DNA of 64,000 nt, taken from Gilvimarinus agarilyticus. Lineage in GTDB: Bacteria; Pseudomonadota; Gammaproteobacteria; Pseudomonadales; Cellvibrionaceae. The stretch spans positions 2,666,631 through 2,730,630 of the forward strand of contig NZ_JXCJ01000001.1 in assembly GCF_000832015.1 (NCBI RefSeq), read 5' to 3'. Both the position numbers and the translations under genes were made by a program. Of the stretch, positions 5,388 through 30,632 are shown one piece after another. Position 1 is the stretch's first letter, and every line of letters starts with the position of its first letter. The notes under the pieces are model-generated. The model worked only from the letters and a program-made list of their open reading frames with translations, ran no database searches and was not told the DNA's origin.

Positions 5388-6215
5388 TTAATACTCCGGG
5401 GCTGTTACCTGCAACAGCCGCTCGACAAAAAACTCTAGTCGCCCGCTAGGCCCTGCTGGCAAAGGCCAGTTGTCGACTTTGTCGGCCAATAAGCGAATAG
5501 CCTGCGCCGCTTTAGAGTGTGGCGCGTACTCAATTAGCGGTTGCTGGCGCTGCACCGCTTTGCGCACGGACTCGTCAAACGGCACGGATCCAACGTACTG
5601 TAAGGCGACATCCAAAAAGCGCTCACACACCCCCGCGAGCTTGTTAAACAGGAGTTGCCCTTCCGTACTGGTGCGGGTCATATTCGCCACCACCCGAAAT
5701 CGCTGTATGTCGTACTCTTTGTTTAACAGCTTAATCAGCGCGTAGGCATCGGTGATGGAGGATGGCTCATCGCAGACAACGACCAGTACCTCGTTGGCGG
5801 CGCGTGCAAAGCTCACCACCGCATCAGAAATACCCGCTGCGGTATCGATAATTAATACATCCAATTGATGGCTTAACTCGCTAAAGGCGGTGATAAGCCC
5901 AGCGTGCTCAGCCTCGCTCAGGTGTGCCATACGTTGCAAGCCCGAGGCGGCCGGTACAATTTTTATCCCACCCGGGCCAGACACTAGCACCTCGGATAAT
6001 GTGTGGGTTCCCGCCAACACGTCAGCCAAGGTGTGAGTGGGCGTTAGCCCCAGCAGAACGTCGACGTTGGCCAACCCGAGGTCGGCATCCATCAACACGA
6101 CCCGACGGCGCAACTGCGCCAATGCCAGGCTGAGATTGACCGATATATTGCTTTTTCCGACACCGCCTTTACCACCACTTACCGCGATGACCTGCACTGG
6201 GCGAGCTTGGCTCAT
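5388..6215 (-). CDS. flhG: FlhG/FleN, MinD-like ATPase controlling flagellar number
   Basis: FlhG (FleN in Pseudomonas) limits flagellar number, in pseudomonads by antagonising FleQ. The 275-residue protein has the deviant Walker A GGKGGVGKS at 14-22, the MinD-type DADLGLANVD segment, and IIDTAAG. It lacks the N-terminal DQAxxLR motif used by some homologues to stimulate FlhF, as also seen in the Pseudomonas form. A C-terminal amphipathic helix (FFVERLLQVT) could be the membrane-targeting sequence. It is sandwiched between flhF and fliA, the standard polar-flagellum order. Confidence 0.95.
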   Translation of the reverse strand: MSQARPVQVIAVSGGKGGVGKSNISVNLSLALAQLRRRVVLMDADLGLANVDVLLGLTPTHTLADVLAGTHTLSEVLVSGPGGIKIVPAASGLQRMAHLSEAEHAGLITAFSELSHQLDVLIIDTAAGISDAVVSFARAANEVLVVVCDEPSSITDAYALIKLLNKEYDIQRFRVVANMTRTSTEGQLLFNKLAGVCERFLDVALQYVGSVPFDESVRKAVQRQQPLIEYAPHSKAAQAIRLLADKVDNWPLPAGPSGRLEFFVERLLQVTAPEY

Positions 6216-17784: not shown

Positions 17785-19497
17785 CTAGTCGTCATTGCGC
17801 CAGCAATAGGTAGCGGCCACCACATTGCCGGCTCCTCGCACCTCGAGTGAATCACATAGAGATTCAATCATTTTCAGTCCGCGGCCACTGTACTCATTAC
17901 CGGTAAGCTCTGGGCGCGCCGCCGGATCAAAGCCGTTGCCACTGTCCGCCACCACGATCGCCAGAGAGCCTCCGTCCATATCGGTGCTGTGGGCCAAATC
18001 GATTTTGACATACCCCTCGGTAATGGCTTTGGTGCGCTCGCGACGCAGCTGGTAATAGCGATCAAACCCTTCCGGGTCATCTTTTATCGAAGAGTCTAGC
18101 CCCAATACGCCGTGCTCCAGCGCGTTGGTGTATAACTCAGAAATAATGGTGTACAGAGTACCGCTATGGTTGCGCAGCCCAGGCACCTCTAGCAATACGC
18201 TTAACAGCAGCGGCAACGGGTCAAAAATTGCAAAGCTTGAGGGTTTAACCTCAAAGCTTAGGCTCCACTCGGCCAACTGAGATTGCGAGTTGGCCTGTTC
18301 GGTGCCTGGGGTTACGTAGGCTGAACTAAGCGGCGCCATCAGCAACTCAATTAATGATAAATCATCACTGCGCTGGCCCTGCCCTACAAAATCTTTCACC
18401 CGCTCTAATAATTCATCAAAAAGTACCGGAGCCTGCGTGTTTTGGGCAAAGGCCGCTAGTAGTCGCTCCTCACCAAACATCTCGCCCTCGGTATCGCGTG
18501 CCTCGTGGATACCGTCAGACCAGAGGTACAGCCGCTCCCCTTGCTCCATGCTGATAAGCGCCGGATCGGCTTTAAACTTTTTGTTGGTTAATACGCCCAG
18601 CGGTAAGTGGGTTGATTTAATTTGCTCGACACTGCCATCGCGGCGATACAGGTAAGCCGCAGGCAAGCCGCCATTCCAGATACGCACGGTGTTTTTGCGA
18701 AAATTCATCTCCACCATGGCGGCACAACAAAACAGTCCTACGGGTAAAATACTTTTTAGCTTACCGTTAATTTCCGCAAGGATATCGGACATGGCAAAGC
18801 CTTTGTCCACCATGCCATAAAACGTCGTGGCCAGCGGCATAGCGCCAATAGCGGCTGGCAGTCCGTGGCCTGTAAAATCTCCCAGTAATACCATTAAATT
18901 ACCGGCCGGCGTGGTCGAGGCCACCATCACATCGCCATTAAACACTGCCAAAGGAGACAAGTAATAACGCAAGTGTTCGGTATCAACGTGGCCGCTACTG
19001 GTTATATTGTCGAACACTTGCTTCGCAACCGTCTGCTCTTGCAAGAAGTGCTCATTGTGCTGCGCGATCTGGTCTCGCTGTTCCAGCATCGTTCGTTGCA
19101 TCGAGCGCATCCGAAAAAACGACTTTACTTTGGCTTGCAGAATAACGGGGTTGTAGGGCTTTGATAAAAAGTCGTCGCCACCGGCCTCAAGGCACTTTAC
19201 CAGTGACTCAGTATCGGTAAGGGAGGTGAGAAAGATAATGGGTACAAGCTCTTCCCCGGCCAGGGATTTAATTTGCCGTGCGGCGGCGAACCCATCAAGT
19301 CTCGGCATCAGAGCATCAAGCAACACGATGTCAGGCCGATGCTCTCGAAAACAGATCACCGCTTGCTCGCCATCTTCGGCACTTAACACACGATGGCCCT
19401 GCTTGCGCAATATGGTTTCTAAAATTATTCGATCCGTCGCGGTGTCATCGGCAACCAGCACGGTAATTAAGCGCTCGTCCTTTTTAGCAAGATCCAT
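17785..19497 (-). CDS. Response regulator fused to PP2C-type phosphatase and HATPase anti-sigma kinase (HsbR-like)
   Basis: The 570 residues read: receiver domain (about 10-130) with phospho-acceptor D61 in IVLLDALMPRLDG; a coiled linker; a SpoIIE/PP2C phosphatase domain (about 180-385) with VLLGDFTGHGLPAAI and LYLWSDGIHEARD; and a C-terminal GHKL ATPase of the RsbW type (about 420-568) with ELYTNALEHGVLG, VVADSGNGFDP and YSGRGLKMI. The protein thus has both a kinase and a phosphatase for a STAS antagonist, the HsbR arrangement. It lies three bases from the STAS gene. Confidence 0.93.
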   Translation of the reverse strand: MDLAKKDERLITVLVADDTATDRIILETILRKQGHRVLSAEDGEQAVICFREHRPDIVLLDALMPRLDGFAAARQIKSLAGEELVPIIFLTSLTDTESLVKCLEAGGDDFLSKPYNPVILQAKVKSFFRMRSMQRTMLEQRDQIAQHNEHFLQEQTVAKQVFDNITSSGHVDTEHLRYYLSPLAVFNGDVMVASTTPAGNLMVLLGDFTGHGLPAAIGAMPLATTFYGMVDKGFAMSDILAEINGKLKSILPVGLFCCAAMVEMNFRKNTVRIWNGGLPAAYLYRRDGSVEQIKSTHLPLGVLTNKKFKADPALISMEQGERLYLWSDGIHEARDTEGEMFGEERLLAAFAQNTQAPVLFDELLERVKDFVGQGQRSDDLSLIELLMAPLSSAYVTPGTEQANSQSQLAEWSLSFEVKPSSFAIFDPLPLLLSVLLEVPGLRNHSGTLYTIISELYTNALEHGVLGLDSSIKDDPEGFDRYYQLRRERTKAITEGYVKIDLAHSTDMDGGSLAIVVADSGNGFDPAARPELTGNEYSGRGLKMIESLCDSLEVRGAGNVVAATYCWRNDD

Positions 19498-27473: not shown

Positions 27474-28700
27474 TTAATCGGTAGTATTAACAGTGGGTGC
27501 TATCGCCGGCAGCAACATAAGCGCCTCGGCACCGTCACCTTTGTTGGAGCGCAAATTAAAGCGCCCGCCGTGGGCACGGGCGACGGCTTGCACCACCGCC
27601 AACCCTAACCCGGTACCTTGAGCCTTAGTGGTCACAAACAGCTCACCCAAACTGGGCAGTAACTCGGCATCGATACCGGGGCCGTAATCGCGTACCTCAA
27701 CGGCCAGCCAGGGTTCGCCGGCTACGCACTGAACACTCATCGTGATATCGATACGGGCCTCTCGCCCCGATGCCTGAATGGCGTTGTTGACTAGATTCAG
27801 CAGCGCGCTGACTAACGCATCGCGGTTGCACGACAGGCCATAGTCAGCCCCGCTAACCGACCAATTAATCGTGCTGCTGGAGGTCATTACCGGCACCTCC
27901 ATAGCCTCGGCCAACTCTGCCTGTAAATCGCGAACCTGTAGCTGATTGCTGATGGGCAGTTCGCCTTTTACAAACAGCAGCATGTCCTGCACTTGACGCT
28001 CCATATGATTGAGGCGGTTGGAGACTTTCTCGGCAAACTTTTGGCGCTGCTCTAATGGCAGCTGCTCTTTGCGCAAATGGCCGCAGTAGAGCATGGCAGC
28101 GGATAACGGCGTGCGAATTTGATGGGCCAGAGCTGACACCATTTGCCCCAGCGCTGACAGCCGCTCGTGCTTACTTAACTCGCTTTGCAAACGGCGCGTC
28201 TCGGTTTGATCGGTTAATAGAATAATTTGCCCGTCGCTGCCCTGGTTACGAGTGGCAAGGCTAATGCGCCGACCGTCATGCAGCGAAATCTCGTGGCCGT
28301 CGTCCTGTCGCGGAGCAAACGAGCGCTCGATCACATCGCGCCAAAGCTCTCCCTCCAGTGGCTCACCCAATAATTCAATGGCCGCGGGGTTGCACTCGCG
28401 CACCCGGCCTTTATTGTCCAGCACTACCACGCCGCCAGGTAAAACATTCAGGAGGCTTTCCAGCCGGTTGGCGATACGCTCTTTTTCGGCCAGCTCTTCG
28501 AGCCGCTGTTGGGTAACCTCTGTCAGTTCCTCATTCAGGTCTGCTACCCGCTGCTCCAGCGCCCGGTAAGAGCTGGTCAGTTGATCGGACATTTGTGAGA
28601 ACAGCTCAAACGCATCCGCCAACGCCGCTGCTTTGTCCGGCGTGCCAGAGGCGGATTGATTCAGCTGGTCAATATTAAGGATGTCGGCTTTGGCCGTCAT
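27474..28700 (-). CDS. fleS: FleS/FlrB, flagellar sensor histidine kinase
   Basis: FleS is a soluble kinase for FleR. The 408 residues have an N-terminal coiled coil (about 40-80), a PAS domain (about 82-165), a dimerisation/phospho-acceptor helix with H193 in LAHQIRTPLSAAM, and an HATPase domain with N-box LLNLVNNAIQASG, VRDYGPGID and GTGLGLAVV. No membrane segment is seen, so the signal is cytoplasmic. It is transcribed from a sigma-54 promoter with a hairpin in the leader. Confidence 0.95.
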   Translation of the reverse strand: MTAKADILNIDQLNQSASGTPDKAAALADAFELFSQMSDQLTSSYRALEQRVADLNEELTEVTQQRLEELAEKERIANRLESLLNVLPGGVVVLDNKGRVRECNPAAIELLGEPLEGELWRDVIERSFAPRQDDGHEISLHDGRRISLATRNQGSDGQIILLTDQTETRRLQSELSKHERLSALGQMVSALAHQIRTPLSAAMLYCGHLRKEQLPLEQRQKFAEKVSNRLNHMERQVQDMLLFVKGELPISNQLQVRDLQAELAEAMEVPVMTSSSTINWSVSGADYGLSCNRDALVSALLNLVNNAIQASGREARIDITMSVQCVAGEPWLAVEVRDYGPGIDAELLPSLGELFVTTKAQGTGLGLAVVQAVARAHGGRFNLRSNKGDGAEALMLLPAIAPTVNTTD

Positions 28701-28747: not shown

Positions 28748-28789
28748 CAACGGAAATCCATCGTTAGTGCTTCGTTATAACGACTAACT

Positions 28790-28804
28790 GCAAACGCAAT
28801 GCCA
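28790..28804 (-). promoter_or_regulatory. Sigma-54 promoter of fleSR
   Basis: The minus strand reads TGGCAT-N5-TTGCA with GG-N10-GC spacing, one mismatch from consensus. The predicted start is near 28778, leaving a leader of about 78 bases. An AT-rich stretch (28805-28829) lies directly upstream. Confidence 0.82.
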
Positions 28805-28857
28805 ATAAATATTTTATATAATTATCAGTGGCTTAGGGGCACCAGAACAAGAAGGGA

Positions 28858-28871
28858 GTCAAATGTTTGGC
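28858..28871. promoter_or_regulatory. Candidate FleQ box upstream of fleS
   Basis: GTCAAA-TG-TTTGGC is a near-perfect dyad, one base off symmetry. It resembles both the 14-bp Pseudomonas FleQ box (GTC...GAC) and the perfect dyad at the fleQ promoter. It lies about 85 bases upstream of the predicted fleS start, a plausible enhancer position. Confidence 0.45.
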
Positions 28872-28970: not shown

Positions 28971-30407
28971 TTAACGTTGCAGGTCGTACTTACGCATTTT
29001 TTCAACCAGCGTAGTGCGCCGGATAGCAAGCTTGTCGGCGGCGCGGGCCACCACCCCGCCGCAATCGTTCAGCGCTTGCTGGATCAGGTCACACTCAAGA
29101 TTGGTCAGGTATTCACGCAAGTCAATGCCCTGCGCAGGCAGCAGTGCGGTATCGTTTAAGCTGACCACCGCGGCACCATGCCCGGACTCATCATCGACGA
29201 TGAAGGATTCATCTTCCACATCGATGTGCCGGTACTTGGGGGGTAAATCTTGCACCCCAACCACACCGTAGGGGTGCATAATGGCCATACGCTCGACGAG
29301 GTTAGCCAACTCGCGAATATTGCCAGACCAAGCGTGCTGGCAAAGTGACAATATAGCGGCTGAATTAAACCGAATAGAGCCGCGTTTTTCGCTCTCCATG
29401 CGCGAGACCAGCTCGTTGATCAGCAGCGGGATATCCTCGGCACGCTCTTTTAGCGAGGGCAACTCGATGGGGAACACGTTGAGGCGATAATACAAATCCT
29501 CACGAAAGCTGCCCTCTTCAATCATTGATTCGAGGTTGCGGTGGGTCGCAGCAATAATACGGACGTTGGTTGGAACGGTGCGATTGCTGCCCACCCTTTC
29601 GTAACACTTCTCTTGCAATACCCGCAGAATCTTTACCTGCATATTCAGGGGCATATCGCCAATTTCATCCAAAAACAGCGTGCCGCCTTCGGCCAGCTCA
29701 AAACGCCCGGCCCGAGCCGAGATGGCACCGGTAAAGGCGCCCTTTTCGTGGCCAAACAACTCGCTCTCGAGTAGCTCGGCGGGTATCGCACCGCAATTCA
29801 CGGGGACAAACGGGCTTTCACGGCGGGCCGAATGATAGTGCAGATTACGGGCAACCACCTCTTTACCCGTGCCAGACTCGCCAGTGATTAAAACCGACAC
29901 CTCTTTATCGGCCACTTGGGTCATCATGTCCCGGACAGTTTGCACCTCGCGGCTGGTACCCACCAAAGAGCGGAATAAGTGCACGGGCCGACGCTGAGCA
30001 CGCTGACGGTTTTGCTCCTGGGCATCGGAATATAACCGGGCCCGGTGCAATATATCGATGAGGGAGGTGTAGTTCAGCGGGCTGGCTAAGGCACCCACTA
30101 CTTTCACGCGCAGCTTGGGCGAGAATCGTTCGACTCCGACGAGCTGGGCGCTGTTCGTCACTGCCACGGCCACTTTATCGTTCCAGCAATCGAGTTTCTC
30201 TACCAGCGGCGCGCCCCATATGCTGCACTGCTCACTTATCATTACCAGCAGCCACTCGTTGGGCTGCTCGTCATCCGCCAATATGGCATCCAGCTCGCCT
30301 GAGGATATAAGAACAGCCTCCTCTTCTAAAAAAGCAAAGATGGTGGCTAATTGGTTGCGGTTATTTTCATTATCATCAATAACTAAAATCTTATGGCTTC
30401 GACACAT
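28971..30407 (-). CDS. fleQ: FleQ/FlrA, master sigma-54-dependent flagellar activator
   Basis: FleQ heads the flagellar hierarchy and in Pseudomonas also binds c-di-GMP. The ATG at 30407 (MCRSHKILVIDD) is chosen, with AAGG at good spacing; the frame extends to 30518 without homology. The 478 residues have a degenerate receiver (about 1-125) with no Asp at the usual site (WLLVMISEQ), an AAA+ domain with Walker A GESGTGKE (176-183), GAFTGA (223-228) and Walker B FLDEIGDM, and a Fis-type helix-turn-helix at the end. The degenerate receiver implies control without phosphorylation. Confidence 0.95.
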   Translation of the reverse strand: MCRSHKILVIDDNENNRNQLATIFAFLEEEAVLISSGELDAILADDEQPNEWLLVMISEQCSIWGAPLVEKLDCWNDKVAVAVTNSAQLVGVERFSPKLRVKVVGALASPLNYTSLIDILHRARLYSDAQEQNRQRAQRRPVHLFRSLVGTSREVQTVRDMMTQVADKEVSVLITGESGTGKEVVARNLHYHSARRESPFVPVNCGAIPAELLESELFGHEKGAFTGAISARAGRFELAEGGTLFLDEIGDMPLNMQVKILRVLQEKCYERVGSNRTVPTNVRIIAATHRNLESMIEEGSFREDLYYRLNVFPIELPSLKERAEDIPLLINELVSRMESEKRGSIRFNSAAILSLCQHAWSGNIRELANLVERMAIMHPYGVVGVQDLPPKYRHIDVEDESFIVDDESGHGAAVVSLNDTALLPAQGIDLREYLTNLECDLIQQALNDCGGVVARAADKLAIRRTTLVEKMRKYDLQR

Positions 30408-30489: not shown

Positions 30490-30518
30490 TTGATAGCGGT
30501 TTTGACGGTAACAGTCAA
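30490..30518 (-). promoter_or_regulatory. Sigma-70-type promoter of fleQ
   Basis: The minus strand has TTGACT, a 17-base spacer and TATCAA, five and four matches to the -35 and -10 consensus. The predicted start is about 75 bases before the fleQ ATG. Its -35 box overlaps the dyad at 30514-30527. Confidence 0.6.
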
Positions 30519-30527
30519 ACATTTGAC
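30514..30527. promoter_or_regulatory. Perfect dyad resembling a FleQ box at the fleQ promoter
   Basis: GTCAAA-CA-TTTGAC is a perfect 14-bp inverted repeat overlapping the fleQ -35 box. A further TTTGAC half-site lies at 30501-30506. This fits the 14-bp GTC...GAC shape of Pseudomonas FleQ boxes and suggests autoregulation; the binding protein is inferred. Confidence 0.55.
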
Positions 30528-30593: not shown

Positions 30594-30632
30594 TAAAAAG
30601 CCCTTACCACAATGATTAATGCGCTAAGGGCT
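30594..30632 (-). terminator. Rho-independent terminator of fliD-fliS-fliT
   Basis: On the minus strand, an 8-bp stem AGCCCTTA / TAAGGGCT is followed by TTTTTAATT, 23 bp after the fliT stop. Confidence 0.85.

Follow-up and report, generated by a model that had tools for sequence, protein, structure and literature searches.

Both the polar-flagellum cascade and the switch to biofilm have FleQ at their head. FlrA of Vibrio cholerae is homologous to FleQ and is described as likewise a master flagellar regulator under the control of c-di-GMP. According to the title of a 2002 paper, fleQ is reportedly sigma-70 dependent and downregulated by Vfr. In Pseudomonas aeruginosa, a 3D-seq study reports a peak of FleQ upstream of fleQ, places all FleQ 3D-seq sites within the ChIP-seq set, and gives a 14-bp motif that is present in 13 of the 14 peaks (PMC9159945). 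In a ChIP-seq study of P. fluorescens F113, fleQ is counted among the flagellar genes likely to be regulated by FleQ and fleSR is named as a FleQ target in Pseudomonas; the authors called the FleQ consensus unreliable in F113 and could not define a motif (PMC6120874). The same report gives GTCaNTAAAtTGAC as the FleQ box consensus of P. aeruginosa biofilm promoters (PMC6120874), and the box is printed elsewhere as GTCAAT and ATTGAC, two bases apart, with some P. aeruginosa boxes lying close to or over regulatory regions (PMC10723142). Among the matches listed from the open-access literature, none stated that FleQ represses fleQ, and none described an operator on the -35 element of fleQ or the tracing of such a site through the class.

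We analyzed a 64-kb stretch of the Gilvimarinus genome, hereafter called the window; genome-wide motif searches covered the whole genome of 4.19 Mb. The window contains a flagellar cluster with fliA, a MinD-like ATPase gene, flhF, flhA, flhB, fliP, fliM, fliE and fliS, and the genes fleR, fleS and fleQ in this cluster were named from gene order and similarity. Also encoded in the cluster, at positions 17785-19497, is a protein of 570 aa whose N-terminal part is a response-regulator receiver domain. The features that concern fleQ are as follows.

28971 to 30407, minus strand: fleQ coding region, with its ATG at 30407.
30514 to 30527, minus strand: predicted operator of the FleQ-box type, reading GTCAAATGTTTGAC on the fleQ strand, assigned from sequence and upstream conservation.
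30513 to 30518, minus strand: -35 hexamer TTGACT, which is mostly the downstream arm of the operator.
30490 to 30495, minus strand: -10-like hexamer TATCAA after a 17-bp spacer, assigned from sequence and comparison.
30501 to 30506, minus strand: isolated, unconserved TTTGAC half-site.
30595 to 30632 (also given as 30599 to 30632), minus strand: candidate terminator, a hairpin followed by UUUUAAUU, in the gap between a fliT-like open reading frame and fleQ.
5388 to 6215, minus strand: MinD-like ATPase, a candidate for FlhG/FleN, between flhF and fliA.

The fleQ product gave a 608-bit match to the FleQ chain 8p53, and its C-terminal helix-turn-helix segment, IRRTTLVEKMRKY, is identical to that of 8p53. 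In its own genome the next paralogue scored 256 bits, compared with 1061 bits for fleQ itself. The nearest sequences are those of Gilvimarinus, with 81% identity to G. polysaccharolyticus, and among the best 25 of 28 NCBIfam models none passed its cut-off for FleQ. The ATG was placed at 30407 because the N-terminus that it gives is common to the relatives; a TTG at 30518, which merely begins the longest open frame in the ORF list, was rejected as the start. As for the ATPase at 5388 to 6215, MinD models stayed below their cut-offs, and its FlhF and FliA neighbours were above theirs.

The initial annotation had described a dyad, GTCAAA-CA-TTTGAC, on the fleQ promoter, and the sequence confirms it: GTCAAACATTTGAC occupies positions 30514-30527, which correspond to -120 to -107 relative to the fleQ ATG. 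No further exact copy of GTCAAANNTTTGAC occurs in the 64-kb window or in the 4.19-Mb genome. The statement that this dyad covers the -35 element also held, since its right arm is TTGACT, 17 bp from TATCAA, and this spacing is kept in the relatives. On the fleQ strand the promoter reads TTGACT-17-TATCAA from 30518 to 30490, where its end coincides with the start of the range annotated initially. Thus, by sequence and comparison, the predicted operator overlaps the core promoter of its own gene. All 8 of the same-genus promoters have a -10 hexamer that starts with TAT at this 17-bp distance. TTGACT-17-TATCAA is missing from the calls of the promoter scanner on the window, because the rule of the scanner requires T at position 6 of the -10 hexamer. 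The additional TTTGAC half-site that had been pointed out is indeed present at 30501-30506, but none of the 7 other same-genus promoters has it there; for this lack of conservation it was rejected as a second operator, and it is probably due to chance. The hairpin upstream (-19.6 kcal/mol, z -4.0, with a short U-run) is absent from the output of the terminator scan of the window; we regard it as a likely terminator, and in that case fleQ would depend on its own promoter.

The perfect symmetry of the dyad did not prove to be strong evidence. The window contains 27 perfect 6-2-6 dyads, and when the 248-bp intergenic region was shuffled 5000 times such a dyad arose in 261 cases, so that symmetry by itself is weak evidence. 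Unlike the symmetry, the FleQ-type core is remarkable at the fleQ intergenic region; exact GTCANNNNNTTGAC appeared in 2 of the 5000 shuffles of that region. In the whole genome the core was not enriched (10 and 12 matches, compared with 9 and 8 for the reversed control), and the case therefore rests on position and conservation. That is, the motif alone is insufficient to identify FleQ sites. In the window the core occurs at 21 places with at most one mismatch, 19 of them inside open frames, and no intergenic one was found there besides the fleQ site and a site upstream of fleS.

The resemblance of the 14-bp shape to a FleQ box, which had also been noticed at the outset, is borne out: the form agrees with the printed box, and the window site matches GTCANNNNNTTGAC exactly and has 3 mismatches to GTCANTAAATTGAC at 13 specified positions. 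The biofilm FleQ boxes and the window site share the 14-bp pseudopalindrome GTCA...TGAC, but the centre of the window box is AAAnnTTT, unlike that of the biofilm-promoter boxes. Moreover, the biofilm targets mostly carry several boxes, whereas the window has one box over the -35 element of fleQ. With respect to fleQ itself, the P. aeruginosa peak and the present locus both represent a FleQ-type site at the regulator's own gene, though in different species; the overlap with the -35 element and the operator coordinates come from the Gilvimarinus sequence, and for P. aeruginosa a peak is described without a sign (PMC9159945). The regulon described for P. fluorescens F113 includes fleQ, as here, but without a definable motif (PMC6120874). 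The presence of FleQ at fleQ is thus known in Pseudomonas, and the Gilvimarinus site would be another instance of it.

Conservation in relatives had been proposed as a check of the dyad. We gathered 110 fleQ loci, of which one short locus and ten duplicates were dropped, leaving 99 distinct upstream regions including the window's own, and searched the 250 bp upstream of fleQ for the core. The core was exact in 57 of the 99 regions (0.05% in dinucleotide shuffles) and present with at most one mismatch in 89 (4.2% in dinucleotide shuffles); many of these genomes are related, and such counts are not independent. For the sets beyond these, and for the fleS regions considered below, the shuffles keep the single-base make-up only. 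In further fleQ regions of the same order the core was found at the same threshold in 12 of 15 (13 of 16 before removal of L225, a duplicate of L111; 2.2% in shuffles, computed for the 16). In the class outside the order, where most families are represented by a single genome and some by two, the count was 42 of 54 (3.8% in shuffles), or 39 of 54 when the fleQ strand only was considered. The regions that lacked the core at this threshold numbered 10/99, 3/15 and 12/54, respectively. Control stretches of equal length at two places inside fleQ contained it in 7 and 2 of 99, and stretches 300-550 bp upstream in 13 of 98, a value that may be raised by a few box-like sites lying far upstream, such as that of L137 at -293. 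Across the relatives the distance from the box to the ATG ranges from about -69 to -213, and the -10-like hexamer stays at 17 bp. The site is therefore preserved within the genus, within the order and in most of the class sample, which contradicts the absence of conservation that had been named as part of a refutation, and to judge from these sequences the site is more widespread than the initial annotation could know.

The left arm was examined separately, because conservation of TTGAC would be expected of any -35 element. GnCA stands exactly 5 bp before TTGAC in 89 of 99 main regions, in 13 of 16 further same-order regions (this count includes L225, the duplicate of L111) and in 30 of 54 class regions; at each other gap from 0 to 11 it was seen in 0 or 1 region. 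In the regions with a single TTGAC, the left-arm letters can be counted without being used to locate the site. There, position 1 of the box is G in 37 of 39, 6 of 8 and 33 of 35 regions of the main, same-order and class sets, and position 3 is C in 38 of 39, 6 of 8 and 33 of 35, while position 2 between them is variable. Of the same regions, 36/39, 8/8 and 29/35 have a -10-like hexamer with T as its first letter at a distance of 17 bp. The fixed G and C of the left arm mean that the conservation exceeds that of a -35 element alone. Thus the comparison argues that both the promoter and a second conserved half, which makes up the predicted 14-bp operator, are real. These constant G-x-C ends are consistent with the 5'-GxC contacts that a published model assigns to the arginine pair of FleQ (PMC10723142).

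The class set has the consensus TTGACAT...gTG.TTaACT, an extended -10 form, and TTGACA is the -35 hexamer in 29 of its 35 single-TTGAC regions. Many class fleQ promoters (among L163-L217) have TTAACT or TTTACT as the -10 hexamer after TG and one base, and at position 2 of this hexamer T replaces the usual A in 30 of the 35 regions.

A second box-like site lies on the other side of fleQ, with the following features.

27474 to 28700, minus strand: fleS-like sensor kinase, named from gene order and similarity.
28858 to 28871, minus strand: second FleQ-box-like site, GCCAAACATTTGAC, upstream of fleS.
28789 to 28805, minus strand: TTGGCATTGCGTTTGCA, a sigma-54-type promoter before fleS.

Read on the plus strand, positions 28858-28871 share 13 of 14 letters with the fleQ-strand operator. 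The sigma-54-type promoter follows downstream of this site after a gap of 52 bp, measured edge to edge. In the fleS regions of relatives the core with at most one mismatch was found in 20 of 74 (4.3% in shuffles), and in 5 of 8 rows of the same genus; an exact core was found in 0 of 74. We therefore regard the support from the fleS regions across relatives as modest. The fleS-like kinase gene is a probable FleQ target. No NCBIfam model reached its cut-off for this kinase among the matches listed.

In some lineages the fleQ promoter carries a second box-like site. At +18 from the box such a site was seen in 14 of 30 Pseudomonas regions and in 8 of the 35 remaining same-order regions (a set in which one genome appears twice, as L111 and L225), compared with a mean of 0.69 per offset; the counts at +18 and -18 partly mirror each other, since either of two boxes may be taken as primary. 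In the Pseudomonas regions the +18 site overlies the -10 hexamer. At +50, just past the expected transcript start, it was seen in 9 of 9 Thalassolituus-like regions (L057, L059, L063, L064, L065, L073, L080, L081 and L091). Between -80 and +99 of the box, no further core site with up to 2 mismatches occurs in the window promoter, and a weak +50 site occurs in 1 of the 7 other same-genus promoters (L119). A two-box looping model was rejected for the window, where the +18 and +50 sites are absent.

From these sequence comparisons we think it probable that the dyad serves FleQ as an operator and overlies the -35 element of a sigma-70-type promoter of fleQ, and hence that fleQ is under direct negative autoregulation. 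The interpretation proposed in the initial annotation is supported by the conservation, the form of the box, its position at the -35 element and the presence of FleQ at fleQ in Pseudomonas. We infer repression as the sign of the effect here and, by analogy, an input of FlhG/FleN and c-di-GMP at this promoter. The mechanism may be considered as follows. A FleQ dimer would, by means of its Fis-like helix-turn-helix domain, contact the 14-bp box at both of its G-x-C ends. Exclusion of RNA polymerase is proposed because the downstream arm is the -35 element; that is, bound FleQ would keep the polymerase from the promoter and lower fleQ transcription, and this direct negative feedback would set the FleQ level. 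FlhG/FleN with ATP would probably strengthen the binding of FleQ, and c-di-GMP may modulate it.

The main competitor accepts the FleQ operator but gives it a positive or dual sign, with FleQ activating fleQ, perhaps only with c-di-GMP, as is reported at pel and lapA. FleQ activates or represses biofilm promoters depending on c-di-GMP and FleN, as two reports describe (PMC6120874, PMC10723142), and some lineages have the second box-like site at +18 or +50. With the box centred about 37 bp ahead of the start expected for the transcript, use as an activator site is conceivable. On the other hand, the -35 element is near consensus (TTGACT here, TTGACA in most class regions) and lies inside the operator, so that occlusion is the simpler explanation, and in the window promoter the core site stands alone within the range and mismatch limit given above. 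We therefore consider activation unlikely here, while giving it more weight than the alternatives that follow.

It is a good deal less probable that the dyad is the operator of AmrZ, Vfr or another protein, with FleQ uninvolved. AmrZ and Vfr are described as repressors of fleQ in Pseudomonas. Of these two, it is the Vfr site, of the CRP type, that was compared with the dyad, and it is unlike it. The dyad agrees instead with the form of the FleQ box, a near-identical 14-mer recurs before the fleS sigma-54-type promoter, and in P. aeruginosa a FleQ peak is reported at fleQ (PMC9159945). That only the -35 element is conserved, and that the symmetric left arm is a coincidence, seems to us extremely improbable: perfect 6-2-6 dyads are indeed frequent (the window has 27, and 5% of the intergenic shuffles contain one), but the left-arm G and C recur at a single, constant spacing in the order and class samples alike, which contradicts coincidence.

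Returning to the reading of the dyad as a repressing FleQ operator, a broader proposal can be put forward tentatively, as something slightly short of an even chance. That is, a FleQ operator that forms one unit with the -35 element of fleQ may be an ancient and near-universal gammaproteobacterial feature, by which a common switch caps FleQ, and the variation among the boxes may reflect the binding code of FleQ. The comparison also yields a phylogenetic footprint for the FleQ box, whose motif was left undefined by one ChIP-seq study (PMC6120874). If the proposal is true class-wide, the fixed G-x-C ends with a free middle would be a binding code that this ChIP-seq study was unable to define. Conservation of such an operator at the fleQ promoter would, if true, explain a steady level of FleQ, and it would give FlhG and c-di-GMP a route for feedback on the whole cascade.
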